A stretch of DNA of 37,716 nucleotides from Opitutia bacterium. Lineage in GTDB: Bacteria; Verrucomicrobiota; Verrucomicrobiia; Opitutales; Seribacteraceae. The DNA is taken from the NCBI GenBank assembly GCA_002721705.1, contig PBLJ01000072.1, forward strand, positions 1 to 37,716, read 5' to 3'. The notes under the pieces are model-generated. The model did not search any database. It saw nothing but the letters and a program-made list of their open reading frames with translations, and was not told the origin of the DNA. Both the position numbers and the translations under genes were made by a program. This document shows positions 9,995 to 35,700 of the stretch, piece after piece; position 1 is the first letter of the stretch; each line of letters opens with the position of its first letter.

Positions 9995-9999
9995 ACTAT

Positions 10000-10006: not shown

Positions 10007-10061
10007 TTAACTAAACTTAATGCAAATTGCTCTTTAATTGGTAAGGGCCGCGGAGAAAAAA

Positions 10062-11069: not shown

Positions 11070-11088
11070 GCCTCCATACTTAGACACG

Positions 11089-11123: not shown

Positions 11124-11150
11124 GACTGGAAAAAGGGGGAACTACTGGCG

Positions 11151-12545
11151 TCAGTTCTTCTTTGAGTAACGAGCCTCCTTACCGCTAAGGATGAAGCGAA
11201 GGGGAGCCCCCAGAAGATCGAATCGCGTGGTGAGACCATTGGCCAAGTAGCGCTGATAACCATCTTCCAAGCGATCGATGCGATTGCAAAAAAGACGAAT
11301 CGTAAAAGGGCGTGTGTTAGTCTGCACGGCATAGAAAATCTTGAATCGCTTGCCCTTGCGGGCTGCGGGTGGTCGATTCTCCATCATGCCGATGATTGCG
11401 CGGTTCAATTCCGGTGTCGGGAGAAAACGATCCAAGCCTTGATCCACTTCACGCACCGCGGAAAGCATGTCTTCGATTGCCAATCCTGTCTTGGCGGAAA
11501 CGAAAAGGATCGGGAAACCCGGCAAAACGAACAATTCCTTGCGAATCGCTTTTTCGTACTCTTTCCGGAAATGAGACTCGTTTTTGTAACCGCTCAAGGG
11601 GTCTCTGCGAAACCCCTGAACCGCAACGTCCCATTTATTGACGAGCACGACCAAAGCCTTGCCGGATTCCGCGATCAATCCGGCCATGACCTTGTCCTGT
11701 TTGGACACGCCTTCACGAGCATCGAGAACGAGAAGGGCGACGTCGGTGCGATTAATTGCTTCCTCTGTACGAAGAGAGGAAAAGTATTCCAAGGAGTCCG
11801 CGATTTTTTTGCGTTGTCGCAAGCCTGCGGTATCAAAAAGGCAAAATCGCCAAGTTTCATCCTGCTCGGCTTGGTAATCCAGCTCCCGCATGGTGGTTTC
11901 ACGCGTAGTGCCCGGGACGTCGCTGACGATCAAGCGCTCGGCGTCAAGCAGGCGGTTGCACAAGGAGGACTTGCCTACGTTGGGACGTCCCACGAAAGCC
12001 ATCCGAATACGGCGTTCACCGCGGACGTTGCTTTCGGGAGCAACGGGGCCAAGCCGTTTGCGGATGTCTGCGAGCAAGTCCTCGACCCCGAATCCGTGCT
12101 CCGCGGAAAGGCGATGGAAATCGTCGAACCCAAGCCTGGCGAACTCATCGGCACGACCCACCTCCTCGGGAAAATCGATTTTGTTGACGACAAGTACCAG
12201 TTGCTTGTCCAAACGCCGTAATTTCTCCGCCACCATTTCATCCAAAGGAGCAAGGCCTTCACGCCCATCGGTCACGAAAAGGATCAAATCGGCCGCCTCG
12301 ATGGCAAAATCAACTTGGGCCTCGGTTGCATCCTGAATTTCCACGGGAGTCATGCTTTCTCGGAGACCAAGGCCACCGGTATCCATCAAGACGTAACCGT
12401 CCGCGGATTCCGCCGTCACGACGTCCCTGGTAACACCCGGCCGATCATGCACGATGGAAATGCGGCGACCGGTCAACCGGTTGAAGAGCCGGCTTTTCCC
12501 AACGTTGGGTCGGCCGACGATGGCTATGCTTGGAACTGGGCCCAT
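11151..12545 (-). CDS. der: Ribosome-assembly GTPase Der (EngA)
   Basis: Der is the only bacterial GTPase with two tandem G domains, and both are intact. The first has GRPNVGKS (11-18), DTGG (55-58) and NKID (121-124). The second has GRPNVGKSS (186-194), DTAG (238-241) and NKWD (303-306). A C-terminal KH-like domain follows (about 365-455, with the RKGKRFKIFYAVQ pattern). Length is 464 residues, normal for the family. It acts in 50S ribosomal subunit maturation and is usually essential. The gene starts nine bases after the aminotransferase stop and is followed by a clear hairpin terminator, so it is probably the last gene of the lrp-aminotransferase-der transcript. Confidence 0.95.
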   Translation of the reverse strand: MGPVPSIAIVGRPNVGKSRLFNRLTGRRISIVHDRPGVTRDVVTAESADGYVLMDTGGLGLRESMTPVEIQDATEAQVDFAIEAADLILFVTDGREGLAPLDEMVAEKLRRLDKQLVLVVNKIDFPEEVGRADEFARLGFDDFHRLSAEHGFGVEDLLADIRKRLGPVAPESNVRGERRIRMAFVGRPNVGKSSLCNRLLDAERLIVSDVPGTTRETTMRELDYQAEQDETWRFCLFDTAGLRQRKKIADSLEYFSSLRTEEAINRTDVALLVLDAREGVSKQDKVMAGLIAESGKALVVLVNKWDVAVQGFRRDPLSGYKNESHFRKEYEKAIRKELFVLPGFPILFVSAKTGLAIEDMLSAVREVDQGLDRFLPTPELNRAIIGMMENRPPAARKGKRFKIFYAVQTNTRPFTIRLFCNRIDRLEDGYQRYLANGLTTRFDLLGAPLRFILSGKEARYSKKN

Positions 12546-20509: not shown

Positions 20510-21595
20510 TTAATCAGCTTCAACCAAGGCGGCGGCAATGATATCGGAGGAATGGCCATCTCCGTAGAGAGGAAGGTCCCAGTCCGGAGAGGAATGGATG
20601 GCCTCCATGGCTTTTTCCGGGATCGAATCCACGCCGGGGCGAGCAAGACGGTTGTGGCCTCCGGGAAGGAGTTCCATCCATTCGGTCTCAGTTCGTATCG
20701 TCACGCATGGAGTCCGATGGAAGAACGCTTCCTTCTGCATGCCACCTGAATCAGTCAAGACGAGGGCTGCTGCGGCTTGAAGACGCAACATGTCCAAGTA
20801 ACCTACCGGCTCGATAATCCGAGCGTTCGAGGCAAGGCTTTCCAGCAAACCGAATTCTTTTAATCTGGCTCGCGTGCGCGGATGCAGCGGGCAAAGAATC
20901 GGCAAGGACTGAGCAACCTCGCCTAGGCCCTGCAAAACCTCGGTCAAGCAATCTTCATGGTCCACGTTTTCCGGTCGATGCATCGTGCAAAGAGCGAAGC
21001 CGCCTGGCTCAAGACCGTACTCCTCGAGAACACGGCTCTTTTGCTGGGCAAGGTCACCGAAAAGCCTAACGGCATCGAACATCACGTCTCCCGTGCGGAC
21101 AACGTTTTTGCCGCTAAATCCCTCCATTGCCAACCTACGAGCAGCTTCCTCGGTAGGAGCGAACAGAAGATCGCAGGCGTGATCGGTCAATATGCGGTTG
21201 ATTTCCTCGGGCATGTTGCGGTTGTTTGAACGCAAACCGGCCTCGACGTGCGCGCAGGGCAAATTCAACTTGGTAGCGGCGAGGGCACCTGCGAGGGTAG
21301 AGTTCGTGTCACCGTAAACCAGAGTCCAGTCGGGGCGTTCGCGTTCGAGAACCTTCTCGATTTGAGTCAGCATGGCTCCAGTCATGGCTCCATGACTTCC
21401 TCCGGAAATGGCGAGATTGGCATCCGGTTCGGGGATGCCCATTTCCTCGAAGAATATGCGGGACATGTTGTCGTCGAAATGCTGCCCGGTATGGAGAAGG
21501 TACTCATCGGCGCCCTGTTTTTCGCGCAAGGCTCTGGAAACAACGGCCGCCTTGACGAATTGGGGGCGGGCTCCAATGACACTGACGATTTTCAT
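20510..21595 (-). CDS. wecB: Non-hydrolysing UDP-GlcNAc 2-epimerase family enzyme (WecB/WbpI type)
   Basis: The 361-residue protein has the family motifs GARPQFVK (8-15), TGQH (36-39), GDTNST (95-100, Asp96), HVEAGLRS (116-123, Glu118) and PEEINR (129-134, Glu131), plus DSGGMQKEAFF and a TEW-x-EL stretch near the C terminus. These residues match the catalytic acids of WecB, which converts UDP-GlcNAc to UDP-ManNAc. The overall wording (GARPQFVKA, HTGQHFDDNMS, MQKEAFF) resembles WbpI-like enzymes that act on a diacetamido uronic acid, by my recollection, so the true substrate may differ. The ATG overlaps the upstream GT stop (ATGA); a longer frame to 21667 lies inside that gene and was not used. 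Confidence 0.85.
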   Translation of the reverse strand: MKIVSVIGARPQFVKAAVVSRALREKQGADEYLLHTGQHFDDNMSRIFFEEMGIPEPDANLAISGGSHGAMTGAMLTQIEKVLERERPDWTLVYGDTNSTLAGALAATKLNLPCAHVEAGLRSNNRNMPEEINRILTDHACDLLFAPTEEAARRLAMEGFSGKNVVRTGDVMFDAVRLFGDLAQQKSRVLEEYGLEPGGFALCTMHRPENVDHEDCLTEVLQGLGEVAQSLPILCPLHPRTRARLKEFGLLESLASNARIIEPVGYLDMLRLQAAAALVLTDSGGMQKEAFFHRTPCVTIRTETEWMELLPGGHNRLARPGVDSIPEKAMEAIHSSPDWDLPLYGDGHSSDIIAAALVEAD

Positions 21596-22770
21596 GATTG
21601 CCGCCCTGAATTTGAAAACAAGCCGTGATAAAGGCCGAGGAGGGCATTTTCCTGTTTTTCCCAGCAATGATCTTCCGCCATAACGCGAGCATTGGCTCCC
21701 AAGTGATCAAGGTTCATGTTCAAGATTCGTTCCACGGCATTCGCAATGCCTCGAGCGGTAATGTCGGGGCAAACCACGCCGCATTCGTATTGCTCGATCG
21801 TGGACCTCATCTCAGGTAAATCACTAACCAATACGGGCAACCCAGCCATACCGTATTCAAACAACTTGTTGGGCATGCAATAACGATAGCTCAAACAGAG
21901 ATCCTCGATGAGTGACAATCCGACGTCGGCGGAAGAAACGCAATCGATCAATTCGCTCGAGGGGACAGGGTCATGGAAGTATACGTTTGGCTCTCGACGG
22001 GCAACGCTCCGAACCCGAGCTTCCAAATTTCGTCCCTCCAAGGAAGTCCCGCCATATCCAATGAAAACAAGAGCTCTATCCTTCTGACCCGAGAAAGCGT
22101 CGAGGGTGGCCTCCACGGCGCGCCCCTTCGCCAGGCTTCCAACGTAAAGGAAGATCGGAGTGTCGGGAGAAATTGAAAATCGCTCTCTCAAGAGGTTCGT
22201 TTTGTTCCGCTTCCACACAGGAGGCGCATTACGCACCACACTAGGTCTGGCGACGTCATAGCGAGCGGAGTACCAATCCGCTATTTTATCACCGACCGTA
22301 ATGGTGGCGTCGACACAAACGAAGAACGCCTTCTCCAGCCATCTCGACAAGTACTTGCGCATGCCGCGGGCAGCCATCTTCTCGGTTTCAAGTTCATGAG
22401 CATCGTAAACAAGAACACTTCTTCCGCCTAGCAATTTCGCCATCGCGGCCAAAGGCAAAGGTTCCAAGTCGTTGCAGTGAATTGCGTCGAATTCACGGGC
22501 TGAACCAAGCAAGCGACAAGCCATGCCGACAAGGCTTCCCAATCTACCCGGCCCGGAACAACGAACCACGCGAAAGCCATCTATCTCCTCCTTCGCAGGC
22601 AAACCTTCACCGGAGAAAGCGAACAAAGTCACGTCAAACCCATGGGAAGCCAGACTTCGACAAGTTTTCTCCACACGGGAATCATGACGGAAATCGTTGA
22701 AGACCAAGTTGGCGAGTCGCACTCCTTTCCCTTTGGAGGATATGGTTTGAACCTGTGTATGCGAGGTCAC
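21592..22770 (-). CDS. GT4-like glycosyltransferase
   Basis: The 392-residue GT-B protein has an N-terminal half with NLVFNDFRHDSRVEKTCRSL and the YDAHELE motif near residue 125 that recurs in GT4 acceptor domains. The C-terminal half contains FLYVGSLAKGRAVEATLDAF, and NKLFEYGMAGLPVLVSDLPE near residue 320, the donor-binding region. Donor and acceptor are unknown. The start is a GTG at 22770, 15 bases after the preceding stop. A second in-frame GTG at 22722 has AGGG six bases upstream and removes a polar 16-residue leader, so it is a real alternative. The stop overlaps the 2-epimerase start. Confidence 0.8.
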   Translation of the reverse strand: MTSHTQVQTISSKGKGVRLANLVFNDFRHDSRVEKTCRSLASHGFDVTLFAFSGEGLPAKEEIDGFRVVRCSGPGRLGSLVGMACRLLGSAREFDAIHCNDLEPLPLAAMAKLLGGRSVLVYDAHELETEKMAARGMRKYLSRWLEKAFFVCVDATITVGDKIADWYSARYDVARPSVVRNAPPVWKRNKTNLLRERFSISPDTPIFLYVGSLAKGRAVEATLDAFSGQKDRALVFIGYGGTSLEGRNLEARVRSVARREPNVYFHDPVPSSELIDCVSSADVGLSLIEDLCLSYRYCMPNKLFEYGMAGLPVLVSDLPEMRSTIEQYECGVVCPDITARGIANAVERILNMNLDHLGANARVMAEDHCWEKQENALLGLYHGLFSNSGRQS

Positions 22771-22785: not shown

Positions 22786-24099
22786 CTAGCTTTTCCTTTC
22801 TCGGTTGGCTCGCATGAAGTCGCGCCCCTTGCGCAACGCCTTGCCTACGACGGGAAAGGAACCCACCCGTTGTTTGATATCGGACCATGCCCATAGGAGC
22901 TTTTTCTTGAGGCGCAGGTCTTTTTCATATTCCTCGATCAAGTTAGCGGCTCGGCCAAAAGCTTCGGAATCGACGTCCGGCCCGCGGTATTTGTCATGAA
23001 TGAGTTTCACGATTTCACGAGCTTTCACGGAGTACCGCAAGGCGGTGCAATCGGCAATCGCTTCACGACACCGCTCAATCATGCTTTCGACCTCGCCGAC
23101 GTCAGCCATCGACCTTCGCACGGTATCGAAATCCGAAGCATCGGGCTTGATTGGCAAGTAATGGTCCCAAGGGGTGAGCAACCCACTGTAATCTCCTTCC
23201 ACCAAGATTTGGGCGCTGCGTAGAAGAGCCGCCTCCAAGGCACGAGGGGAAATGGCGGTAAAATCCCCATGTCGCTCATCCTCGGAGGGAAAGCAATTCT
23301 CTGCCACTTCCTCGAAAGCGGCATTGGGTCGCTTGAGCAAATAGCGACGAACTGCGCCCGCGACGTCGCCGACTGGATCCAACAGGCTGGAACCGCTGTT
23401 GGATCCCAAAGTAAATTTGCAGTCATTGATGAAATCCAGCCACGCATCCCCTTTGAGAAAGCCCGATGCATCGGGGAAAAGCTCAATCGAGACCTTTAAG
23501 TCGGCGTCTTCCGTGAGAGCCTTGAGGTCACGCCCTATGGTCCATTTGGTTTCCCCCAACCGTCCACGAGTCGGCAATAACTTCTTAGCTCGATATCCTA
23601 TGTCAATGGAGCGCCTTGAAAAAGGTTTGGTGGGATAATCCAAAAGGGCGTCGTCCACGCATCCGGTGTACCACAACTTGATTTCACCCTTCTGGAAATA
23701 TTTTGGATAAAGTAATTCCCAACGATCGGGAATGACTGAAAACAACACGTCCACTTCCCACTCGCACATCCATTTGTCGGTGATCAAATGACAATCGTAA
23801 TCGTCTTGAGGAAAAGCCAGCACGACGGCGTTCGAATCCTTGACGAAAGCAAAATCTCTTTTCCGCCGTTTCAGAATGGCTGGGTCGAAACACCGCTCTC
23901 CCATGAAGGTAGTGTCGAGGACAATGGCATGGAAATGGATTTCCTTGAGGTATTCGGGAAAAGGAAGCGAAACTTCATGGTAGACGTAATTATGCTCGGG
24001 GAAATGATCTTGCAGGAAGAAAAGATGCTTTCGCAAGGAGCGGTTGGCCTTGGCGGGATTACCGAGACGATGCAAGGTGAGAACGTTTAGTTTGTTCAA
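22786..24099 (-). CDS. Uncharacterised GT-like protein, paralogue 1 of 3
   Basis: The 437-residue protein has no motif of a named family that I can assign with certainty. It is homologous over its full length to the next gene upstream. Shared blocks are LTLHRLGNP (7-15), AFPQDDYD (95-102), DIGYRAKKLP (166-175, later YR-x-R/K-LP in all copies), FINDCKFTLGSNSGSSLLD (223-241), AISPRALEA (282-290) and PWDHYLPIKPD (310-320). The last two resemble the donor half of group 1 glycosyltransferases, so a GT-B enzyme is the best guess. The tail is basic, with no membrane helix. The TTG start aligns with the GTG start of paralogue 2 and follows its TAG by seven bases. Confidence 0.7.
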   Translation of the reverse strand: MNKLNVLTLHRLGNPAKANRSLRKHLFFLQDHFPEHNYVYHEVSLPFPEYLKEIHFHAIVLDTTFMGERCFDPAILKRRKRDFAFVKDSNAVVLAFPQDDYDCHLITDKWMCEWEVDVLFSVIPDRWELLYPKYFQKGEIKLWYTGCVDDALLDYPTKPFSRRSIDIGYRAKKLLPTRGRLGETKWTIGRDLKALTEDADLKVSIELFPDASGFLKGDAWLDFINDCKFTLGSNSGSSLLDPVGDVAGAVRRYLLKRPNAAFEEVAENCFPSEDERHGDFTAISPRALEAALLRSAQILVEGDYSGLLTPWDHYLPIKPDASDFDTVRRSMADVGEVESMIERCREAIADCTALRYSVKAREIVKLIHDKYRGPDVDSEAFGRAANLIEEYEKDLRLKKKLLWAWSDIKQRVGSFPVVGKALRKGRDFMRANRERKS

Positions 24100-24106
24100 G
24101 TAGCGC

Positions 24107-25432
24107 CTAGGGTTCCGTTTTTGGCCGAGCCACTATCTTTCGACGAGTTCTTTCCTGAAAAGCGGACATTGTTTTTCTCAACCCAGGACCGAGGATCGGA
24201 ATCTTCGCAATGATGCTCTTGGTGTCCTGCCAAGCCCACAGCATCTTGTTTTTCTTTCCGATTTCTCGTTCGTATTTGGCAATAATGGCTTCTACTCCCT
24301 GCAAATGAGATTCGGGACGACTGTCTCCCGAGCGCTCTCGAATCAGGTCCAAAATGCGTTGCGCTTGAAAGGAGTAGCGAAGAAACCGACAATCCAAGAT
24401 CGCCTCGCGGCATCGCTTTATCATGCGTTCCATTTCCGCAACGTCTCCCATCGCCTCGAAAACCTCATCGAAATTGGAGGCATCGGGTCGAATCGGAAGG
24501 TAATGCTCCCAAGGTTCGACGATTCCACTGTATGCCCCATCAACCAAGATTTGCCCACTGCCAAGGGCGGCTGTCTCGAGAACTCGAGGGGAAATCGCCG
24601 TGAACTCGTATTTCCCTTCCTGACCCGGGAAACAGGCTGCCTCCACCTCCTCGAAGGTAGCATCCGGGGAATCCGCAAGATAGCGCCTCACCGCTTGCTG
24701 AATCTCTCTTCTGGGATCAAGGAGACTGGACCCACTGTTGGCTCCCAAGGTAAACTTGCAGTCATTGATGAAATTGATCCAATCATTCCCAAACAACCTC
24801 TTTCCATCACCCAAGACGACGTCGGTGCGAAGCCCGGCGGCTCGAGCCAAACGATCGACCTCTCGACCAATGGTCCATTTCGTCTGGCCCAAGCGACCGA
24901 AGTAAGGAGGTAGTTTCCTGGCGCGATAGCCAAGGTCGATGGTACGGTCTGCAAACGGTTTCGGTTGGAAGGACAGCAACTTTTCATCCAGGCACCCGCA
25001 ATAGGACAACTGAAATTCCCCTTTTTCATGATAACGCGGGTACAACACCTCCCGATGGGATTCCAAAACCGAAAAAACGACGTCGACCTTCCATTCCATC
25101 ATCCAATCGTCCAGCAACTCGTTGCAATCGTACTCGTCTTGCGGAAAGGCAAATCGAACGGCATCCAAGTCAGCGACGAACGAATATTCTTTCTTGCAGC
25201 GCTCGAGAACGTCGGGTTGCCCCCATCGAGAACAGAGGAGAGTGACGTCCAGAATGACTGCATCGAAAGGGATGTCCTTGACGTAGTCGGGAAGATGCAC
25301 CGCCACGTCGTGGTAGACGTAATTGTGCTCGGGAGCATGGTCCCTGAGAAAAAAGACGTGTTTGCGCAGGAAGCGCACCGCCCGTCGAGGATTCCCAAGA
25401 CGGTGCAGGGTAAGTATATTCAACTTCTCCAC
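24107..25432 (-). CDS. Uncharacterised GT-like protein, paralogue 2 of 3
   Basis: The 441-residue protein aligns end to end with paralogue 1 and almost surely arose by tandem duplication. It shares LNILTLHRLGNP at the N terminus, AFPQDEYDCN, DLGYRARKLPPYFGRLGQTK, FINDCKFTLGANSGSSLLD, AISPRVLE and PWEHYLPIRPDASNFDE. The C-terminal approximately 60 residues are helical and basic. The putative donor-site half suggests a glycosyltransferase acting on the cluster's glycan; no substrate can be named. The frame is open 177 bases farther upstream, but that stretch lies within the preceding epimerase gene, so I set the start at the GTG at 25432, 22 bases after that gene's stop and in register with paralogue 1. 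Confidence 0.7.
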   Translation of the reverse strand: MEKLNILTLHRLGNPRRAVRFLRKHVFFLRDHAPEHNYVYHDVAVHLPDYVKDIPFDAVILDVTLLCSRWGQPDVLERCKKEYSFVADLDAVRFAFPQDEYDCNELLDDWMMEWKVDVVFSVLESHREVLYPRYHEKGEFQLSYCGCLDEKLLSFQPKPFADRTIDLGYRARKLPPYFGRLGQTKWTIGREVDRLARAAGLRTDVVLGDGKRLFGNDWINFINDCKFTLGANSGSSLLDPRREIQQAVRRYLADSPDATFEEVEAACFPGQEGKYEFTAISPRVLETAALGSGQILVDGAYSGIVEPWEHYLPIRPDASNFDEVFEAMGDVAEMERMIKRCREAILDCRFLRYSFQAQRILDLIRERSGDSRPESHLQGVEAIIAKYEREIGKKNKMLWAWQDTKSIIAKIPILGPGLRKTMSAFQERTRRKIVARPKTEP

Positions 25433-25454
25433 TAGAAATGGAGCTACGCGGAGC

Positions 25455-26507
25455 TCAGAAGCCTTGCATTTGAGAATCGTGCCGCGCGATGCATTGGGCG
25501 ACCAAGTCTCGGTTCGCTTTCGTCCAATCGACGAGACGCGAAATGCCTTCCGATATCGAGACCTTGGCCTCGAAGCCAATTTCGTCTTTCGATTTCTCGG
25601 TTGACCCAAATCGTTTTCCGGAACGATCCCAATCGCGAGCCGGAAGTAAATCCACCGGGGTGGGGTTGCCCGTCGCCTCGTTGATCAAGGCGGCCAACTC
25701 GGCGATGGTGGTTTCCTTGCCGGAAGCCAAATTGTAAACGTCGCCGGGTTCGCCAGCCAAGGCGCAACGAATCAAGCCATGAGCCAAGTCCTCGACGAAA
25801 ATGAAGTCTCTGCTCGACTTGCCCTCGTTCTCTAGTGGCAGGGCTTCGTGATTCAGGGATTTCCAAACAAAGGTGGGTGTAACGTTGCGCCAAACGGTAT
25901 GAGGCGTGCCACGCCAGCGTCCGGCTCCCAGAATTTCACCGGGACCGTAGACGTTTTGGAAGCGGGCGCGCACGAAGGGAAGCCCGGCGGCTCCAAAATA
26001 ATAATTCCCGTAGAGTTCCCCGATCAATTTGGAAATGGAGTACGGGGAATCATGGAAAAGGGAGATGGGAGCATCCTCCTTGGTGGCAACGGCATCGTCG
26101 AACGTCTTCTCCGCCACGGCGCACCCGGCAGCCGAGTAGACCACCTTGCGAAGAGTGGGAACGTCCTTGAGGCGCTCGAAGAGCTTGAGGGAGGTAAGGG
26201 TATTGTTTTCGTGATCCGCCAAAGGATCTGCGATGGACGACTGGTTGCCATGGTAGCAGGCAAGGTGAAAGGCGAAATCGAGATCGTCAGGCAAAACGGA
26301 GAGGATCGAGTCGTCCGTGATGGAGCCGTGGATGAAGGTAACGGTGGAGGCTTCAGGCAGGTTACTTTCCTCGGAAGACAGAAGATTGTCCACCACGAGG
26401 ATTTCCCGTGGATCGCGTTCGAGCAATTGCCTGAGCAAATTGGATCCCACGAAACCGGCTCCTCCCACAACGAGGATCTTGGCGGCCTTGAAACTTTCTT
26501 TGCTCAT
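25455..26507 (-). CDS. NAD-dependent sugar-nucleotide epimerase/dehydratase (extended SDR)
   Basis: The 350-residue extended SDR has GGAGFVGS (15-22), a YSAAGCAVAE strand around Ser125, and the catalytic Tyr156-Lys160 pair (PYSISKLIGE). NVYGPGE and RDFIFVEDLAHGLIR are the usual substrate-domain and cofactor-domain landmarks. A dTDP-glucose 4,6-dehydratase-type TGD motif is not seen, so an epimerase or uronate-type enzyme is more likely, but the substrate is open. The ATG at 26507 is 13 bases after the preceding stop and starts a few residues before the dinucleotide-binding strand; the longer frame to 26576 was rejected. It is the third SDR gene in a row and the most diverged of the three. Confidence 0.8.
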   Translation of the reverse strand: MSKESFKAAKILVVGGAGFVGSNLLRQLLERDPREILVVDNLLSSEESNLPEASTVTFIHGSITDDSILSVLPDDLDFAFHLACYHGNQSSIADPLADHENNTLTSLKLFERLKDVPTLRKVVYSAAGCAVAEKTFDDAVATKEDAPISLFHDSPYSISKLIGELYGNYYFGAAGLPFVRARFQNVYGPGEILGAGRWRGTPHTVWRNVTPTFVWKSLNHEALPLENEGKSSRDFIFVEDLAHGLIRCALAGEPGDVYNLASGKETTIAELAALINEATGNPTPVDLLPARDWDRSGKRFGSTEKSKDEIGFEAKVSISEGISRLVDWTKANRDLVAQCIARHDSQMQGF

Positions 26508-26520
26508 CGCCACTACCTGC

Positions 26521-27456
26521 TCAATTCTTCGGCTCAGCCAAATGACTGAAGACGTCGGACACCCCATGCTCGTCATACCAAAAAAGCATGCGGTGAATGG
26601 TTTCCTCGAAACCGATCGTCGCCTTCCATCCCAAAACCCGCTCGGTCTCGGAGGGATCGAGAACTACTTCCGGAACGTCGTCCTCTCCAGGAGGAACGAT
26701 GGGTGGGGGTTCTTCGATGGTGATCCCCAAAAAGGAAGCCACCGCATCGAAGACGTCCTTGATGGAACGGCTTTCGCCGGTGGATACGTTGAAGATGCCG
26801 GTTGGGGCATCGGGTTGCAACACGACGTCGACGACCGAGAAGAAATCGTCCATATCGAGAAAGTCGCGTTTGGTGTCGCTGCAGAAGCAGGACTTTCCCT
26901 GTTTGAGTCGCTGGTAAAAAGTGGGGATGGGGCCAATCGCGAGTCGAGGTCCCGTGACGTTGGCGAGGCGCAAGGACGTGACGGGGATTCCGGAAGACAT
27001 GAGAAACCTTTCGCCCGCAGTCTTGGAAATTCCATAGCTAGTGAACGGGCGTTCGGGATGATCCACGGGAATAGGAACGCGATCGGGCCGACCATAACAA
27101 AGAGCAGTCTGGAAATTCACCACCCGACGGACTTTTGTTCTCTCCGAAGCCTTGGCCACGTTGATGGATCCCGTTACGTTGGTGGCGGCGTCTTCCTCCC
27201 AATCCGAAGGGTCCTTGTATGCGGCAGCGGAGTGAATGACGACTTCGGGCGAAAACTCGTCGAAACACCGATCGACCAGCGAGGCATCCGCAATCGTTCC
27301 CTCCACTACTTTCAATCCAGGCATTTCCGGAACAACTTCCCGTTTACCAGTGGCGAAATTGTCGATCACCAAAATCTCGTTGCCGGCGGGCAACAAACGC
27401 TCGATCAGGTTCGAGCCCAAGCAGCCCGCTCCGCCAGTTATCAATATGCGAGACAA
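26521..27456 (-). CDS. NAD-dependent epimerase/dehydratase, tandem copy A
   Basis: This is a 311-residue extended SDR with GGAGCLGS (8-15), Asp32 after the second strand (NAD preference), NFQTALCYG (114-122, Thr117 in the catalytic Ser/Thr place) and the pair Tyr141-Lys145 (SYGISKTAGE). LRLANVTGPR and RDFLDMDDF are the later landmarks. It matches the gene directly upstream at equal length and along its whole sequence. Expected reaction: epimerisation or dehydration of a nucleotide sugar. The start is a TTG two bases after the neighbour's TGA, with no ATG in a fitting place. The substrate is not known. Confidence 0.8.
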   Translation of the reverse strand: MSRILITGGAGCLGSNLIERLLPAGNEILVIDNFATGKREVVPEMPGLKVVEGTIADASLVDRCFDEFSPEVVIHSAAAYKDPSDWEEDAATNVTGSINVAKASERTKVRRVVNFQTALCYGRPDRVPIPVDHPERPFTSYGISKTAGERFLMSSGIPVTSLRLANVTGPRLAIGPIPTFYQRLKQGKSCFCSDTKRDFLDMDDFFSVVDVVLQPDAPTGIFNVSTGESRSIKDVFDAVASFLGITIEEPPPIVPPGEDDVPEVVLDPSETERVLGWKATIGFEETIHRMLFWYDEHGVSDVFSHLAEPKN

Positions 27457-27458
27457 GT

Positions 27459-28394
27459 TCAGTCCTCGTGTTTGAGGTGGGTGTAGCCTCCGGCAGCTCC
27501 GAATTCTCGAAAATACTCCACGCCGGCCCGAGCCGTTTCCTCCAGTGGAGTAAATTCCATTTCACCGAAATCCTCGAAGGTGCGCGTAGGGTCCAAGAGA
27601 ATGGAAGGCGCGTCGTCCGGACCGATTTCACGAACCTCGGGCTCCGGATATTCGTCAAGCTCCATGGCCTTGACCACGGCATCGTAGAGTTCCTTGATCG
27701 CAACGTCCGCGCCGGAAGAAAAATGATAGGCGCCCGAACCGGTACCGTCGATCGCTCGAATGACGGCCTTGGCTAAATCACCGACGAACACGAAGTCTCT
27801 TCTGGCTGTGGTGACGAAGCATTTCTTCCCTTCCGAAATCCGTTGGTAAAAGATAGGGAGAGGTCCGGACACGTTACGAGGTCCAATGACGTTGGCCAAA
27901 CGGAAAGTGACGTAATCGAGTCCTGAAATCTCAATGTAGTCCTCGGCCGCGGTCTTGGATATGGCATAAGAGGAATTGGCGGGAAGTTTCGGATGATTGA
28001 GGGTGATCGGTTGCTCGAGGGGTTTTACACCGTAGCAAAGCGCGGTCTGGAAATAAATAAACCTCCCGACGTCGTTCTCGAGGGCGGCCCGGACCAGGTT
28101 GGCTCCGCCCACGCAATTGGTCAGGGTGTCGTTGTGCCAGTCGTCGGGATCCTTGTAGGACGCGGCGGTATGGACAATGGCGTCGGGACGAAACTGACTC
28201 GTTACTTTGTCCACCAGCGCTTTGTCCGCTATGGTGTCCTCCACTAGGGTCAATCCCGGATGATTGTCCGGCAGGTGTTCACGCCTGCCCGTGGCGAAGT
28301 TTTCGATCACGAGTACTTGGTCCCCTCGATCGAGCAGCATTTCGGTGATACGCGAACCTATCTGTCCGCATCCTCCGGTTACTAGTATTTTCAT
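27459..28394 (-). CDS. NAD-dependent epimerase/dehydratase, tandem copy B
   Basis: The 311-residue extended SDR has GGCGQIGS (7-14), YFQTALCYG (114-122, Thr117) and Tyr143-Lys147 (SYAISKTAAE), all in register with copy A. Glu31 stands where copy A has Asp32 at the end of the second strand, both fitting NAD binding. Shared stretches such as AAxYKDPxDW and GPLPIFYQR show common descent. Divergence is large enough that the two may do successive steps on one sugar. The ATG overlaps the TGA of the asparagine-synthetase-like gene (ATGA), linking the pair to that amidotransferase in one translationally coupled set. Confidence 0.8.
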   Translation of the reverse strand: MKILVTGGCGQIGSRITEMLLDRGDQVLVIENFATGRREHLPDNHPGLTLVEDTIADKALVDKVTSQFRPDAIVHTAASYKDPDDWHNDTLTNCVGGANLVRAALENDVGRFIYFQTALCYGVKPLEQPITLNHPKLPANSSYAISKTAAEDYIEISGLDYVTFRLANVIGPRNVSGPLPIFYQRISEGKKCFVTTARRDFVFVGDLAKAVIRAIDGTGSGAYHFSSGADVAIKELYDAVVKAMELDEYPEPEVREIGPDDAPSILLDPTRTFEDFGEMEFTPLEETARAGVEYFREFGAAGGYTHLKHED

Positions 28395-30340
28395 GTGTCG
28401 TTTTCCTTGGGTTTCATTACCGTCTCCCGATCGGGCATGGATCTAAACTCGGCTGCTTTGTCATGGAAGGTCTGATGCCAAATTTCAAGACTAAGAAGAC
28501 CCCAGACCTTACGGGAAAAACGTCCAGCGGATTCAAAGTTTTGCAGCACCGCCTCTGGCTGGATGTAGGGACGATTGCGCTGTTTCATTCCTTGAAAAAC
28601 ATCCAAAATCATATCACGCAACTCATCGCCACACCATTCCTTCAAAGGAACGGGGAAACCCATTTTGTCTCGCCGGTTGACTATCCCCTCCGGCAAAACG
28701 TCGCGGTAAGCATTCTTGAGAAGATGTTTCATGTTGCCTCCCGCGAACTTCACGTCAGCTGGAGCGGTGGCGAGGAATTCCACGATGGGATGATCCAGCA
28801 AGGGCACCCTGCTTTCAAGGCCATGAGCCATGCTCATGCGATCCTCGACGTGAAGCAGGGCGGGCAGGAGTGTCTTGAAATCGAAATGGGTCATGTGGTC
28901 GAAATAAGCTCCCTTGCGAACGTTTGCCCGGTTGAGGAAAATTTCGCGGAAGGAATCGTACACTCTCCCCTTGTCCAATTCAGACCAGTCGATCTCGCTT
29001 TCCATGTCCGTGGAACGATCGACCAAGCGAAAATACCTCTCCTCCAGAGGGGAAAACAGTCCGTCTCGCCAAAACTCGCGCATCATGGGCTTGTATTCGC
29101 GAAGAATGCCTAGGTTCGGCACGATGGACTCGAGCGTGACGACGAAGTTTCCATTCTTGTAGGTGCCGTCGATAGCCGCCCGAATGCATTGTTCGAAATA
29201 AGCCAGAAGATAGCGGGCGTAACCACCGAAGATTTCGTCGCCCCCCTGCCCTCCCAATACCACCTTCACTTTTTCAGCCGCCATTTTGGAGACCATGAAT
29301 TGAGGGAAGGAGCCAGGCCCAGCCACGGGATAATCCAAATGGTATATGACGTCGCGGAGATGCTTGGCAAAATCCTCATGCGTAAGGTCGAGGACGTTCA
29401 AGGAACCGCCGCTGCTCTCGACGGCCATCTCCGCGAAACGACTTTCGTCGTATCCGGGATACTCCAGGAATCTGCCATGAAAAGCCTCTCTGTTGGAATC
29501 GTCGTGACGAGAGGCCAAGATTGCCATCAAACTCGAATCGATTCCTCCGGAAACATAGGAACCCACAGGCACGTCTGACCGCAAATGCACCTGAATGGAG
29601 TCATCGACCAATTCGACCAGACGCTCTTGGAAATGCTCGGGGGGACTGTCCCAATCGACTTCATAGTTAACGTCCCAATAACGACGAGTCCGCACCTCCC
29701 CGTCCTCCACCACGAGAGCATGACCGGGAAGCAATTGACGAATGCCCTTGAACATAGTCGCTTCGCCGATGACGTAGTTGAAGGTCAAATACTCGGCCAT
29801 GGCATCGGGATCGGTCTCGATCGCAGGCATAAAAGGCAGCAATGCCTTCGGTTCGGAAGCGAAGAAGAAAAGGTCTCCCACCTGGGCGTAATAGAAAGGC
29901 TTGATTCCAAAACGATCACGGGCGCAAACCAATCGACGCTTCTTTTGGTCCCACAAGGCAAAGGCGAACATCCCCCTCAAATGCGAGAAGCAGTCATCGC
30001 CAAATCGGTCATAGGCAGCGAGAACGGTCTCGGTGTCGGACTGGGAACGAAAGCTCCATTGAGAACCAAGGAGATCGCGAAGTTCAAGGTAGTTGTATAT
30101 CTCACCGTTCAAAACAACCACGGTATCGTTGGGCGCCCGCATGGGTTGAGCGCCTGAGGGACTCAAGTCGATAATGGAAAGCCGCCGATGAGCGAGGCCC
30201 GCGGAAGCTCCCGGAGCCACCCACTGGCCACTGTCGTCGGGTCCCCGGTGGGCAAGCAATCGACCCATCGCCGCCAAGGATGGTTCCGCTGATTCAAAAG
30301 CGCCTTCACGCAAATGAACGAATCCCGCTATGCCGCACAT
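28391..30340 (-). CDS. asnB: AsnB-type glutamine amidotransferase / asparagine synthase family
   Basis: The 649-residue protein has the full two-domain plan. The class II glutaminase has Cys2 as nucleophile (MCGIAGF), HRGPDDSG (31-38), HRRLSIIDLS (51-60), NGEIYNY (78-84) and SDTE at 101-104. The AsnB synthetase domain has the ATP-binding PP-loop SGGIDSS (264-270), and GGQGGDEIFGGY farther on. True asparagine synthase makes Asn from Asp and Gln. Members inside glycan clusters are instead thought to amidate carboxyl groups, for example of uronic acids, and the location here favours that reading. It follows the third GT-like paralogue by two bases and overlaps the tandem epimerases. Confidence 0.88.
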   Translation of the reverse strand: MCGIAGFVHLREGAFESAEPSLAAMGRLLAHRGPDDSGQWVAPGASAGLAHRRLSIIDLSPSGAQPMRAPNDTVVVLNGEIYNYLELRDLLGSQWSFRSQSDTETVLAAYDRFGDDCFSHLRGMFAFALWDQKKRRLVCARDRFGIKPFYYAQVGDLFFFASEPKALLPFMPAIETDPDAMAEYLTFNYVIGEATMFKGIRQLLPGHALVVEDGEVRTRRYWDVNYEVDWDSPPEHFQERLVELVDDSIQVHLRSDVPVGSYVSGGIDSSLMAILASRHDDSNREAFHGRFLEYPGYDESRFAEMAVESSGGSLNVLDLTHEDFAKHLRDVIYHLDYPVAGPGSFPQFMVSKMAAEKVKVVLGGQGGDEIFGGYARYLLAYFEQCIRAAIDGTYKNGNFVVTLESIVPNLGILREYKPMMREFWRDGLFSPLEERYFRLVDRSTDMESEIDWSELDKGRVYDSFREIFLNRANVRKGAYFDHMTHFDFKTLLPALLHVEDRMSMAHGLESRVPLLDHPIVEFLATAPADVKFAGGNMKHLLKNAYRDVLPEGIVNRRDKMGFPVPLKEWCGDELRDMILDVFQGMKQRNRPYIQPEAVLQNFESAGRFSRKVWGLLSLEIWHQTFHDKAAEFRSMPDRETVMKPKENDT

Positions 30341-30342
30341 AA

Positions 30343-31542
30343 TTAGTTAAGGTTTTGAGAATGTAATCGAAGGTAGTCTATCATGGCGTCCATGCCTTTG
30401 CCGAGAACGGACATTTCGTATTTCCCCGAGGCAATGATCTCTTGATACGCCCGATCCACAAGTTCCTGCAGGAAGTCGTCGTCGCGCAAGAATCCGCAAA
30501 TCTCATCGAAATTGGAAAAGTCACGCTCCAAGGGAAGGTAATGCCGCCAAGGCTCGAGAACGCCTCGGTATTCTCCGGGAAACATGACTTGGGCGGTGCG
30601 AACGGCAATCGCCTCGAAGGAACGAGGAGTAATGGTGCGGTGAACGACGTTTCCTTCGTGCGGAGCGAGAAAACGGCGATGCACTTCTTCATAACCTGCG
30701 TCCGGATTTTCTTCTTGGTAAGCGCGCACGGCGCTTTCAATGGAATCGTCGAAATCGAAAATACTCGCTCCCCCCTCAAGCCCGAGGACCGCTTTGCCCG
30801 ACTTCATGAAGTCGATCCAATCATCGCCATAAATTCTATCTTCTTCCTTTGAACTCAAATCGGTTACCAATTCCCGTCCCGCCAAGCGCTTGGACACTTC
30901 GTTGGTCAAAGTGGTTTTTTCGCGAGCGGCGTGACCGAGCCAAAAAGGCAATTCCCGCCCCCTGTAGACAAGGTGCCTGCGACGCTCGCGGATCTTTGGG
31001 GAATCCTGCTGTATCCAATCCTTCGACACGTAGCCCGGAAGGGCCGAGACTTTCACCACATTTTCCATGTCCGGACTGCGGTAGACCTTCTCGAGATTTT
31101 CGATGGTGAGAGACGAGAAGAGACCGTCTATGCCAAGGTGCGTCATCTCTTCCATCATTCGGTTGATCCAACGATACTCGTCTTGAATAATCTGGATTTT
31201 GAGCCCTTTGAATTGCTTTAAAGCCTCTCGCAAATAGGAGGGCAGGTAACTCTCGAAAAGAATGCAGAGCGAGTAATGAATGACCACCACGTCGAAGTTG
31301 CCTCCCTTGTCCGACTGTAAGCGAATTTTCGGGATCTTCCGGAATTTCCCCCATTTCCTTCGCGTTGCTCTTGGAGAAAGAACGGTCACTCGATGGCGGG
31401 AATGGTCGCTCAAAGCGTCGACGTGTTCCTTGACGACCTTGGCAGGATAGCTTACGTCGGCTAGAATGAGAATATCCAGGCAATCCTCCTCTTGACCGCT
31501 CGTCCGAAGCATTTCTTCCAATGAAAAAGCGGTTTGCGCCAT
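30343..31542 (-). CDS. Uncharacterised GT-like protein, diverged paralogue 3 of 3
   Basis: The 399-residue protein shares the block order of paralogues 1 and 2 at lower similarity. QDEYRWIN stands where they have PQD(D/E)YDC. YRGRELPFWLG stands where they have YRARKLPPYFG. DWIDFMKSGKAVLGLEGGAS stands where they have the FINDCKFTLG-N-SGSS block. ITPRSFEA and PWRHYLPLERDFSNFDE match the putative donor-site end. The N terminus (LDILILADVSYPAKVVKEHVDAL) looks like the first strand-helix of a GT-B fold. Probably a glycosyltransferase; activity is unproven. I used the ATG at 31542, 16 bases after the sulfotransferase stop; a longer frame to 31617 overlaps that gene. Confidence 0.65.
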   Translation of the reverse strand: MAQTAFSLEEMLRTSGQEEDCLDILILADVSYPAKVVKEHVDALSDHSRHRVTVLSPRATRRKWGKFRKIPKIRLQSDKGGNFDVVVIHYSLCILFESYLPSYLREALKQFKGLKIQIIQDEYRWINRMMEEMTHLGIDGLFSSLTIENLEKVYRSPDMENVVKVSALPGYVSKDWIQQDSPKIRERRRHLVYRGRELPFWLGHAAREKTTLTNEVSKRLAGRELVTDLSSKEEDRIYGDDWIDFMKSGKAVLGLEGGASIFDFDDSIESAVRAYQEENPDAGYEEVHRRFLAPHEGNVVHRTITPRSFEAIAVRTAQVMFPGEYRGVLEPWRHYLPLERDFSNFDEICGFLRDDDFLQELVDRAYQEIIASGKYEMSVLGKGMDAMIDYLRLHSQNLN

Positions 31543-31558
31543 GACCTGTAATTGGTTT

Positions 31559-32548
31559 CTAGGAATTGTCGACGGAAGCGTTTTCATCGACACGACGAAA
31601 GGAAGACAAACGATCATCGGTCATCGAATTCAAGTACTCCAGGATTCGGCGGCCTTCTTCGTCGGACTCCAAGTTCCGCTTGCGAAGAGAAGGAGCAAAG
31701 GCAAAGTCGGGTTCGCGACGAACAACTTCCATGCCTTGGCCGAGAAAGAAGTCATCCAGCGTTTGCAAGACTTGCTCGGGTTGCCCGCAAAGATCCTCGT
31801 ACCAAACCTGCACGCTTCTTTCCGGACAACTGGAAGCGAAATCCGTTTCGATTCGCCTGCCGTACTCGTATTGCTGTTCGACAACCTGTTCCCAATAAGG
31901 CCTCTCACGAATCTCCATATAATTGCTTGGCGTGGCCGAGTTCCAAATTTCGTAACCTCCTCTTCGCGCTCGGGCCTCCAAGTCGGAACGAGCGGCTTGG
32001 GCAACGTCCCGGCGGATCCATACGAAACTGGAAGCGGGAAACAACCGGGCTAACGCTTTTACACGGTAACAATTCCAAGCGTTCTTGAACAACAACGGGT
32101 TTCCGGAAAGGGAATGAAGAGCGGCAAAGGTCTCCACCATCAAGTTCTCCATATCCGGCAAAGGTTCCTTGCTGCAGGTTTCACTAGGATGCTCTCCTCC
32201 AAACCATCGTTTGAAAAAACAGGATGCTTCGGACGGACCCCATGGGCCTTCGGTCTTTCCATAACGACTTTCATAGGGAACCGAGGCCTGCCCAGCCATG
32301 CCACCTTCAAGGCAAGCTCCGGCAACGGGAGTGTCGCAGAAATTATCGTTGAAAAGATTCGTTGGGTAATGGAATGCAAAATGATTGATGAGAAACTGAT
32401 AAAGCAACGTGCTGCCTGTCCGAGGAGATCCCAAAAGGAAAACGCAAGGCACTTCGATCGAGCTAACTCTCTTGGCATGATCTCTGCGAAGAGACTCCTC
32501 AAGAAGAGTCAAATGATCAACCGGAGGCCTGTTCTCTCGTTCAGTCAT
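31559..32548 (-). CDS. PAPS-dependent sulfotransferase
   Basis: The 329-residue protein carries the two PAPS-binding signatures. The 5'-phosphosulfate loop is LLGSPRTGSTLLYQFL (38-53). The 3'-phosphate motif FVWIRRDVAQAARSDLEAR starts near residue 180, with Arg and Ser contacts. Sulfotransferases move sulfate from 3'-phosphoadenylyl sulfate to a hydroxyl or amine. Position in the glycan cluster suggests a sulfated surface polysaccharide, which would fit a marine life style. The ATG at 32548 lies within the last codons of the SGNH gene, giving an 8-base overlap. No sulfate-activation genes (cysD/N/C) are in the window. Confidence 0.82.
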   Translation of the reverse strand: MTERENRPPVDHLTLLEESLRRDHAKRVSSIEVPCVFLLGSPRTGSTLLYQFLINHFAFHYPTNLFNDNFCDTPVAGACLEGGMAGQASVPYESRYGKTEGPWGPSEASCFFKRWFGGEHPSETCSKEPLPDMENLMVETFAALHSLSGNPLLFKNAWNCYRVKALARLFPASSFVWIRRDVAQAARSDLEARARRGGYEIWNSATPSNYMEIRERPYWEQVVEQQYEYGRRIETDFASSCPERSVQVWYEDLCGQPEQVLQTLDDFFLGQGMEVVRREPDFAFAPSLRKRNLESDEEGRRILEYLNSMTDDRLSSFRRVDENASVDNS

Positions 32549-33203
32549 TGAGCAATTCCAAAACCGCCTCCTCAAACCGCGGATAAGTGAAATCGAGATA
32601 CAAATCGTGTCCTTTCTTGCTCAAATGGAGTTGATCCGAAGGCAGAAGCATTTCCTGCAATTTTTCCGTTTCCTCTCCAAGCTGGTCCCAAAAAAAACGC
32701 TCCACGTCGTTGAAGGTAACCTCGGCATCCTGAGCCAGTTCCCTAATTGCTTGGTTGTAGGACTCGTTGCTCTTCTGGTAGGTGACGTCGGTATGCGGGA
32801 AAACCTCCGCATCCAAGGTCGTGGGGTGGTTGGTGTGCAGGAAAATTCGCCGTGCGCCGAAATTGCTCACACGGTCGATTATCTCGCGCAAATTCGCCGC
32901 GAAAGCTTGGCAACTCACTCGGGGCAAACCCTTGTCGCTTGCCCAATAGTTGCAATCATTCATGCCGAACTGAATAATGACCAAGTCGGGACAATGAGAT
33001 TGCACCTCGTAGGGAATGCATTCCAGAGCCTGACGAGTGGTTCGGCCATTGACTGAAGCATTGGTGACCATGATCTCGGCATCATGCAACTTGCCCAATT
33101 CAGCAAGCTTGGCCGAAGTGCGAGTAACCCATCCATCGTGTATCGCGACGTGTTGACCCGTGCAGATCGAATCACCGAAAAACATTACGCTGATCGTTTT
33201 CAT
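32541..33203 (-). CDS. SGNH/GDSL-family hydrolase
   Basis: The 220-residue protein shows the four SGNH blocks: FFGDSI with nucleophile Ser12, Gly53 in the NASVNGRTT stretch, GMND with Asn82, and DQLH with Asp190 and His193. This family includes esterases and deacetylases of lipids and polysaccharides. No signal peptide is visible, so it would act in the cytoplasm, perhaps adding or removing acyl groups on a glycan precursor. The ATG forms an ATGA overlap with the methyltransferase stop, and the 3' end overlaps the sulfotransferase start, so the three are coupled in one reading block. A longer frame to 33239 was rejected because it begins inside the methyltransferase gene. Confidence 0.83.
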   Translation of the reverse strand: MKTISVMFFGDSICTGQHVAIHDGWVTRTSAKLAELGKLHDAEIMVTNASVNGRTTRQALECIPYEVQSHCPDLVIIQFGMNDCNYWASDKGLPRVSCQAFAANLREIIDRVSNFGARRIFLHTNHPTTLDAEVFPHTDVTYQKSNESYNQAIRELAQDAEVTFNDVERFFWDQLGEETEKLQEMLLPSDQLHLSKKGHDLYLDFTYPRFEEAVLELLND

Positions 33204-33901
33204 AAGCTTTCCAAATCTCCCTTCAAGGTTACCAAGCAAACTTGTCTGCCATTAGGGAACAAGCTCGGTTCGTCTCGTTCCAGAAAATCGAAGTCCGGCT
33301 CGACGATACGATCCTGGAAATACAAAAGTTCACGCGACAAACGATAGCCATCCCAAGGTCGCATGAAAAAGATTTCATCACCATCCACTCTTTTCACTTT
33401 GTAGCACCTGGTATTGTTGTAATACGTCAGCGAAAGCCTGATTTCCCTGGTCAGGGGTAAAAATTTTTCGAGAAACTCGCCCAAGCGCTGATCGACGTTG
33501 GGAAACAAATCGTTCGCGATCACGACGTCGTAGCCCCCGGAAGGAACGAACTCCTGCCAATCAAGGGCATGAATCACTCCTTCAGGCACCGATGCAGTCA
33601 AGGAGCGAACGATTTGCTGGTCGTCATGGTGCATCAAGTCGAGCAATTGATACGAAAAGCGGCTGGCGAAAAAAGAAGTGAATGCGGTCAAACCACCTCC
33701 TACGTCGAGAGCTTTGCCAGAGAAACCGTTGGCAAAATCTTCGTAGAGGGTGGAAAAGAGGTAGCGTTTAGGGGGGCTGTCCAGCAACCATTGGTTGCAA
33801 GTCAATGAACCGGGCAGATCGTCGGTCCTGGAAAGAAGGAAGCGTTCGATCCAATCGTCCCGGAGGTACTCTTTTAAATCCTCTTCCTTGGCCAATTTCA
33901 T
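33200..33901 (-). CDS. SAM-dependent methyltransferase-like protein
   Basis: The 233-residue protein has a Rossmann-type motif I, ALDVGGGLTAFT (64-75), an acidic post-I turn (LLDLM, 87-91) and a motif IV-like strand YDVVIANDLFPNV (124-136). These fit a class I SAM methyltransferase. The C-terminal part lacks landmarks that would name a substrate. The ATG forms an ATGA overlap with the ABC transporter's TGA. Together with the coupled SGNH and sulfotransferase genes it suggests O-methylation of a glycan residue, a common decoration, but methylation of a lipid carrier or another target cannot be excluded. Confidence 0.65.
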   Translation of the reverse strand: MKLAKEEDLKEYLRDDWIERFLLSRTDDLPGSLTCNQWLLDSPPKRYLFSTLYEDFANGFSGKALDVGGGLTAFTSFFASRFSYQLLDLMHHDDQQIVRSLTASVPEGVIHALDWQEFVPSGGYDVVIANDLFPNVDQRLGEFLEKFLPLTREIRLSLTYYNNTRCYKVKRVDGDEIFFMRPWDGYRLSRELLYFQDRIVEPDFDFLERDEPSLFPNGRQVCLVTLKGDLESL

Positions 33902-35700
33902 CCAATCACCTCGTCAAAGGAACCACTGCTTACAATCTTGCCGTCTTCCAAACGATACAAGAGGTCGCAATCCTTGACCGTGCTCAACCTGTGAGCCACG
34001 ATGACGAAGGTCTTTTCGCCCTTCAAGGAACCAACCGCCTCCATGATTCCATCTTCCGTTTTTTCATCCAGAGAGCTCGTAGCCTCGTCAAGCACGAGAA
34101 CGGAAGGGTTGTGATACAATGCTCGCGCTATGCCCACGCGTTGGCGTTGACCACCACTCAGGCGAACACCTCGTTCTTCCAGGGAGGTATCCAGGCCTTC
34201 GGGTAATTCACGGGCGAAGTCTTCTAGCTGGGCCGATCGCAAAGCTTTCCAGACACAATCGTCATCGATGCTCGAATCGCTGAGGCCAAAGGCCACGTTG
34301 TTACGGAGCGAGTCATCCGTAAGATAAATTTCCTGCGGGACGTAACCTATGCGGTTCTGCCAAGAACGAATCTTGGCAGACACCTTCTTTCCGTCCAGCA
34401 AGACACTGCCTTCTTGTGGATCAAGCAAACCCAGCATGACGTCGACCAAGGTACTCTTGCCGGAACCACTTTCTCCTACAATTCCCACCGAAGCTCCCTT
34501 GGGAATGCGAATCGACACGTCCTGCAAAGAAGACTTGTCGCTGGCTGGATATCGATAGTTGACCTCGGAGAAGGAGATTTCGTGTTCAAAGGGCAAAGAT
34601 TCCACCTCTTCGTCGACGCCGCGGGAGGAAGTTCCTTCCTGATCTTTACAATCAATTTCATTTTCCAACACCTGAACGCAGGGCCATCCGAAGCGTATCG
34701 ATTGAATGGCATTCAAGATTCGGCTGAATGAGGGAATCAATCGAAAGGCGGCAGCGGCCAGCATCGCCAAAACCGGCAATGCGGTTTCCACCGGCCTTTC
34801 CTGTCCGATCAGCGCCAAAGCCAGGATCACCAAGCTGAGAACAGCCAGCATCTCGATTCCTAATTTGGGCAATTGTTGTAGCACCAACTGACGCTTGCCC
34901 ATAATGGCCGCGATCCGGTTGTGCTCCTTGTACCGTGCCAGAAACTCTTGTTCGCAACCGAACAACTTTATGTCCTTTATGCCTCCCAGTCCTTGCTGCA
35001 AATGCAACAATTTGAGCCCTTCACGCTTTTGGCGTTCCTTGCCCCATGAAGCAACCGACTTCCGAGTAATCCGGTGATATAACCATGCCACGGAGCCAAG
35101 AACCAACAGCAAAAAGGCCGTACCCAACGGTTCCACCCAAAGAAGCAAAACAAGTACTGCCAACATCACGAAAATCTCGGTCAACAAGATCATGCAAGGC
35201 TGGAGGACGTAGCCTGAGAATGAGTTTACCTCCCCCACCACGTTGCGGATGAGCTGGGAGGTATTGGTTTTAAGATGAAAAACGTAAGGTCTCCGCAAGT
35301 AATGTTCGAAAAGACGGAAAGAGGTTTCCTCCTGCACTCCAAAAGCAAAGCGAGCCTGACGCCGGACCTGAAAGGCCAAAAAAAGGTTCTTGCACAAATA
35401 AACCATAGCCAAGATTAGCAAACCCCAGGTGACCAACATGGCATGCGTAGGATTGCCCAAAGCTTCAAGCCAGGGATCGACTGCGGGAAAACGATCCAGA
35501 TATGATTCCTGCATCAAAATACTAATCGCAGGAATGACCAATCCTATGCCCAAAGTTTCCAAAGCCATGCCGACAAGCATCATGGCAAGAACGAAAACCG
35601 AACGCCGACGAGCCGACGGGCTGAGAATTCCACAAACTCGCCCAAAGCCTTTGAACCATCGTCCAACCAAAGATTCGGCAGCTTTCTTTTTGTCGTTCAA
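33898..35700 (-). CDS. ABC exporter with fused membrane and ATPase domains (PglK/MsbA type)
   Basis: The 600-residue half-transporter has six membrane helices between about residues 30 and 330. The ATPase domain follows: Walker A GESGSGKST (about 400), signature LSGGQRQRVGIARAL (about 510), Walker B VLVLDEATSSLD (about 530) and AHRLSTV (about 568). It would dimerise in the inner membrane. PglK and MsbA relatives flip lipid-linked sugars or lipid A; here flipping of the cluster's polyprenyl-linked glycan is the likely job. The only usable start is a TTG at 35700, with an in-frame stop six bases upstream. It lies 21 bases after the SDR gene and overlaps the methyltransferase gene (ATGA). Confidence 0.87.
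   Translation of the reverse strand: MNDKKKAAESLVGRWFKGFGRVCGILSPSARRRSVFVLAMMLVGMALETLGIGLVIPAISILMQESYLDRFPAVDPWLEALGNPTHAMLVTWGLLILAMVYLCKNLFLAFQVRRQARFAFGVQEETSFRLFEHYLRRPYVFHLKTNTSQLIRNVVGEVNSFSGYVLQPCMILLTEIFVMLAVLVLLLWVEPLGTAFLLLVLGSVAWLYHRITRKSVASWGKERQKREGLKLLHLQQGLGGIKDIKLFGCEQEFLARYKEHNRIAAIMGKRQLVLQQLPKLGIEMLAVLSLVILALALIGQERPVETALPVLAMLAAAAFRLIPSFSRILNAIQSIRFGWPCVQVLENEIDCKDQEGTSSRGVDEEVESLPFEHEISFSEVNYRYPASDKSSLQDVSIRIPKGASVGIVGESGSGKSTLVDVMLGLLDPQEGSVLLDGKKVSAKIRSWQNRIGYVPQEIYLTDDSLRNNVAFGLSDSSIDDDCVWKALRSAQLEDFARELPEGLDTSLEERGVRLSGGQRQRVGIARALYHNPSVLVLDEATSSLDEKTEDGIMEAVGSLKGEKTFVIVAHRLSTVKDCDLLYRLEDGKIVSSGSFDEVIG

Follow-up and report, generated by a model that had tools for sequence, protein, structure and literature searches.

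Which reaction is carried out by three related proteins of no recognized family that are encoded together in one glycan operon? This question is raised by contig PBLJ01000072.1 of an Opitutia bacterium (Verrucomicrobiota; assembly GCA_002721705.1), of which a stretch of 37,716 nucleotides, termed here the window, was analyzed. The three genes, referred to as A (22786 to 24099), B (24107 to 25432), and C (30343 to 31617), are all located on the minus strand. We consider it fairly probable that their products represent an unclassified family of GT-B glycosyltransferases (GTs) dedicated to the UDP-L-hexuronic acid, probably amidated, that is derived from the enzymes WbmF, WbmG, and WbmH (WbmFGH), each copy serving a different acceptor. 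The sugars that these three enzymes produce are known from the Bordetella O antigen. The proposal combines observations, namely, the paralogy of the three genes, their invariant residues, and a two-way genomic linkage to WbmF, with a predicted GT-B fold; beyond these, we infer glycosyltransferase activity, the donor, its amidation, and the assignment of one linkage to each copy.

The first-pass annotation of this DNA had described A and B as a tandem pair alike throughout and C as a diverged third copy. Sequence comparisons bear this out, as well as the existence, position, and strand of the three genes. A and B (441 amino acids, GTG start) are 52% identical across 435 residues, i.e., over their full length (E value of 3e-167); C (424 amino acids; alternative start at 31542) shares 25% identity with A over 316 residues (4e-25) and 28% with B over 365 residues (2e-38). 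This similarity is far above chance, so that, judged by their sequences, the three are true paralogues; the assembly of the same genome contains exactly three copies of the family. They form part of a packed one-strand gene run from 36690 down to 16976, in which the gaps between 35700 and 16976 range from -59 to +22 nucleotides. Shared motifs had also been reported to occur in the same order in all three proteins. They do, but two details differ from the earlier wording: all three proteins match QD(D/E)Y and PWxHYLP(I/L) exactly, YR(A/G)(R/K)xLP holds as written for B and C but is replaced by YRAKKLLP in A, and the glycine block has the spacing LG-x3-G(S/A)S instead of the x4 claimed. An alignment of 54 family members, compiled from relatives and public genomes, revealed ten residues that are invariant in all 54 sequences (Q98, D99, R170, K185, W218, G234, P282, E286, G299, and H310 in the numbering of B), and all ten are present in A, B, and C. 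Across the 54 members, conservation extends to H310 but not to the tryptophan of PW.

The genomic context of the family points to the WbmFGH pathway. (i) When the family was searched without an epimerase reference, its genes were found to adjoin those for AsnB and WbmH/WbmG/WbmF in Alpha-, Beta-, and Gammaproteobacteria, Planctomycetota, Omnitrophota, Actinomycetota, and Armatimonadetes. (ii) Among 134 relatives, the family occurs in 8 genomes and WbmF in the identical 8 and in none else; the probability of this overlap by random draw is 5e-13, a value that ignores shared descent. (iii) Genomes from several phyla that were found by the GT alone contain one WbmF, with 56 to 70% identity, in 21 of 24 cases. 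The remaining three are L041, with a WbmF fragment at the contig end, L040, with a weak fragment of a short-chain dehydrogenase/reductase (SDR) at the contig start, and L031, with none on a short contig. (iv) In the other direction, WbmF was detected in 11 of 397 Rhizobiales, two of which were known before, and the family was scored in the WbmF-positive genomes. Eight of the nine new ones have, at a distance of at most 20 kb, a clear family member with a score above 330 bits; on the 11-kb contig that represents the ninth, only the distant sister subfamily described below is found. (v) Among 300 evenly drawn Burkholderiales, the seed genome alone has WbmH and alone has the family. Taken together, these data establish a strong two-way genomic link between the family and the WbmFGH pathway, and the survey proposed earlier, of family copies with asnB and the tandem epimerases, yielded recurrent co-occurrence across phyla.

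In the window, the cassette lies between B and C on the same strand. It comprises orthologues of the extended SDRs WbmF (25455 to 26516, with the start placed within a longer open reading frame that reaches 26576; PDB 2pzj/2q1s-u, E value of 3.6e-143), WbmG (26521 to 27456; PDB 2pzk/l/m, 1e-147), and WbmH (27459 to 28394; PDB 2q1w, 1.2e-161) and adjoins a minus-strand gene for an AsnB-like glutamine amidotransferase (28391 to 30340; PF00733, 5.9e-85; PF13537, 4.6e-43). The PDB entries are identified as WbmG (2PZK-M), WbmH (2Q1W), and WbmF (2pzj/2q1s-u) in Table 2 of King et al. 2007 (PMC2279256). In Bordetella, the O antigen is lost in wbmG and wbmH mutants and strongly reduced in a wbmF mutant; WbmG and WbmH were proposed to oxidize and reduce C-4 and WbmF to epimerize C-3 and C-5, the proposed product being UDP-2,3-diacetamido-2,3-dideoxy-L-galacturonic acid (UDP-L-GalNAc3NAcA) (PMC2279256). 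The WbmF fingerprint consists of H90-G91-N92, A131, and C133 (PMC12820599). The protein of the window reads ACYHGNQ and SAAGC, retaining both residues, Cys and His, to which the proposal assigns a role in 3,5-epimerization and lacking the SDR Ser. By sequence, the tandem epimerases of the first-pass annotation thus correspond to WbmH and WbmG and the adjacent SDR to WbmF, the most informative context of the three genes, which had gone unrecognized. The AsnB-like gene recurs beside the wbm cassette in many phyla, and this gene context suggests that the acid is probably converted into a uronamide. A second AsnB homologue, approximately 30% identical to that at 28391, often adjoins family genes (L024, L026, L027, L028, L032, L033, L044, and others). 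The window shares the three orthologues in the order H-G-F with the wbm O-antigen locus of Bordetella but differs from it in that an ABC exporter, a sulfotransferase, and three family GTs share one operon with the cassette, and in that the WlbA step was not found.

We then consider what the family is related to. No model of Pfam, NCBIfam, or PHROG matched A, B, or C above its cut-off; the earlier annotation had held that a match to an already characterized family would speak against its view, and Pfam and NCBIfam provided none for the three proteins. Weak matches to RovC, Strumpellin, and methane monooxygenase were judged to be due to chance, and no match to the family was obtained among the plasmids or phages searched. 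Profile comparisons place the family as a divergent branch near PF13524 (YkvP/CgeB-like GT-B), outside the curated Pfam and NCBIfam models. A and B do not match PF13524, C reaches 14.8 bits, below the curated cut-off of 25 bits, and 18 of the 54 members match weakly. The hhalign comparison of the family with PF13524 proteins gave an E value of 3.5e-4 over the final 84 columns; an R.FEA element within a GT-B donor domain is common to both, and viral CgeB-like models rank among the top fold matches of the family. Unlike PF13524, the family has the invariant set QD..R..K..W..G..P..E..G..H and an unmatched N-terminal half. The earlier statement that this half carries no recognizable family motif agrees with these searches, in which it had no sequence match and PF13524 covered the C-terminal part only. 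A fused member in Omnitrophota L036 scores 25.3 bits against PF13524; it contains two family domains in one 903-residue frame (8555 to 11263) that adjoins AsnB and WbmH/F. A sister subfamily in Rhizobiales, mostly adjoining a WecB-type gene, was also noted (L147:14344-15972, L149:16713-17939, L151:7027-8334, L152:17279-18850, and L156:12383-13654). Two of its members were read and keep the donor-side residues without the QDEY motif, and one of two tested passes the PF13524 cut-off (32.8 bits).

A second likeness is to the GT90/CAP10 proteins (PF05686; POGLUT1, Rumi), with which the family shares a block through HYIP and D-SN. Over about 40 residues, the family profile matched human POGLUT1 (GT90, PDB; E value of 6e-6), and over 41 columns it matched two GT90-like proteins from bacteria (hhalign E value of 1.6e-4). 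The likeness is limited to these approximately 41 residues, and PF05686 itself did not match A, B, or C up to an E value of 1 and matched only 2 of the 54 members (best value, 0.004). GT90 enzymes have a catalytic Asp in the N domain and two Arg on the diphosphate, D133, R218, and R279 in POGLUT1 (PMC5543122); in the family, D99 and R170 are invariant and position 283 is R or K, and these three may be counterparts of the POGLUT1 residues. The comparison with the GT4 profile was not significant (E value of 0.04), and the conserved E-x7-E pair of GT4 is absent, E286 being the sole invariant Glu; eight positions before it, no acidic residue is invariant or nearly so. On the basis of profile scores and motifs, membership of A, B, and C in GT90 and GT4 was rejected. 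The donor half is distantly related to the donor domains of PF13524 and GT90.

The predicted structures are in line with this assignment. AlphaFold models built from family alignments had a mean predicted local distance difference test score of 94.0 for B and 89.4 for C, and Foldseek matched both to BshA, PimB', PimA, HepE, and the phage T4 alpha-glucosyltransferase with a probability of 1.00 and a template modeling score of about 0.5. B and C are thus predicted to have a GT-B fold, i.e., two Rossmann-like domains with a cleft, and their best fold matches are the GT4 enzymes BshA, PimA, PimB', and HepE, although the sequence-profile match to GT4 was not significant. The GT-B call that had been made from the last parts of the proteins is supported by these confident models, and the comparison with GT-B folds, run for B and C, did not produce a different fold. 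The acceptor half is accordingly new in sequence, not in fold.

A maximum-likelihood tree of the family shows two deep, well-supported clades, with A and B in one (subfamily I) and C in the other (subfamily II). Both clades are present in about ten sampled genomes, and Legionella impletisoli has five family copies. Identity between the clades is 33% in the C-terminal half and 19% in the N-terminal half, as compared with approximately 42% and 34% within clades, which gives slight support to one donor and several acceptors. The earlier idea that three copies make separate linkages is therefore plausible, in that two old, co-occurring subfamilies differ more in the acceptor half, but not proven; we infer that the two ancient subfamilies make different linkages.

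In the mechanism that we propose, WbmG, WbmH, and WbmF would together oxidize a UDP-N-acetylhexosamine (UDP-HexNAc) or UDP-hexuronate at C-4, epimerize its C-3 and C-5, and reduce it, and AsnB would amidate the resulting L-hexuronic acid. A, B, and C would act as soluble enzymes that pass this L-sugar, or very close variants, to successive acceptors. By family assignment, the EPS_sugtrans enzyme encoded at 18015 would prime the lipid carrier on which the repeat unit is built, and the product may be flipped by the ABC exporter (33898 to 35700, minus strand), which is closest to PglK-type glycolipid flippases, although below the cut-off of that model. The C-terminal half of the GTs would bind the UDP-sugar, with R170 and K185 near the phosphates and with the SPR..E286 element and H310, and the growing glycan would be held by the N-terminal half, where Q98-D99 would lie near the reaction center. 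D99 is a candidate base by analogy with D133 of POGLUT1 (PMC5543122). A base at this position would imply inversion, so that a UDP-beta-L sugar would give rise to an alpha-L linkage. The closest folds, in contrast, are those of retaining GT4 enzymes; both an inverting mechanism with a GT90-like D99 and a retaining one are possible.

Several points weigh against this proposal, and some of them concern the precursor. At an E value of 1e-40, the genome of the window (assembly 89% complete) yielded no WlbA, an enzyme that the Bordetella precursor requires; the full set of Wlb enzymes making UDP-ManNAc3NAcA on the Bordetella-type route to UDP-L-GalNAc3NAcA was thus not recovered here. The sole nucleotide-sugar 6-dehydrogenase found in this genome is UDP-glucose dehydrogenase-like, and none of the HexNAc type was found in the assembly. 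We first supposed that the product of the window is identical to the sugar of Bordetella, but the failure to find WlbA and this dehydrogenase in the assembly argues against taking this for granted. These absences may reflect a gap, since the assembly is incomplete and the cluster is cut off by the end of the contig, or the sugar may instead derive from UDP-glucuronic acid or UDP-N-acetylmannosaminuronic acid. A WecB-type UDP-HexNAc 2-epimerase gene (20510 to 21643, minus strand; TIGR00236 above cut-off) occupies a WlbD-like position in related clusters (neighbors in L108, L111, and L145-L158). In Herminiimonas L108, Wlb genes are followed by wbmHGF in one string, with a WlbA-like protein (E value of 7.6e-181 against PDB 3q2i, which we take to be WlbA) and a WlbB-like protein (2.3e-92 against 3mqg, presumably WlbB); because of this arrangement, the full Bordetella precursor route is probably present there. 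The remaining points concern the linkage and the conservation pattern. The linkage was scored in loci other than the wbm locus of Bordetella, the genus in which the pathway was defined, and many clusters also hold ordinary GT4 enzymes as possible users of the rare donor. The donor half is commonly the better conserved one in GT-B enzymes, and for this reason the case for one donor and several acceptors is only weakly supported by the half-by-half identities.

Linkage also fits a donor or an acceptor alike, and the GTs could add other sugars beside the WbmFGH sugar. They might thus recognize this sugar as the acceptor and attach ordinary sugars to it, a reading that we regard as rather unlikely. 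It explains the linkage equally well, and it is favored by the variable copy number of the family next to one WbmF per genome and by the position of QD(D/E)Y, among the most invariant motifs, on the N-terminal acceptor side. It predicts, however, that the N-terminal half is the better kept one between subfamilies, whereas it is the C-terminal half. We consider it improbable that the proteins are ordinary members of the CgeB/PF13524 superfamily that hitch-hike with WbmF in a mobile glycan cluster without a shared substrate. The weak PF13524 likeness of a third of the members and a cluster that appears mobile and patchy among the 134 relatives would agree with this, but the link holds over several phyla, with differing cluster genes and in both search directions, and the sulfotransferase, SGNH hydrolase, and ABC exporter of the window are absent from most linked loci. 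The GT-B fold is shared by some epimerases, for example WecB, and no member of the family has a known activity, so that a GT-B fold without sugar transfer, or copies that are inactive scaffolds or regulators, may be envisaged. Given that A, B, and C each retain the full set of ten invariant residues and that members sit in glycan clusters, this seems very improbable indeed.

Other features of the window are as follows. A minus-strand block at 31559 to 33901 encodes a sulfotransferase, an SGNH/GDSL hydrolase, and a methyltransferase-like protein; this block accompanies gene C in relatives as well as in the actinobacterial locus L047. No Wzx or Wzy was recognized in the window, which, together with the PglK-like exporter, hints that a lipid-linked glycan is exported by a PglK-type route. 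On the plus strand, positions 128 to 5185 encode a 1,685-residue protein with carboxypeptidase-regulatory-like repeats and a terminal InlB-type repeat.

A limited literature search turned up no paper that assigns glycosyltransferases to the WbmF/WbmG/WbmH sugars. A family that tracks WbmF over many phyla provides direct candidates for their transfer. Tentatively, the family may be specific for one rare donor, the WbmFGH L-uronic acid or its amide, in which case copy number and subfamily would read out the number of such residues and their linkages in a surface glycan. Its genes would offer a way to spot such glycans in uncharacterized genomes, and its copies a start for predicting the number of these residues per repeat unit.

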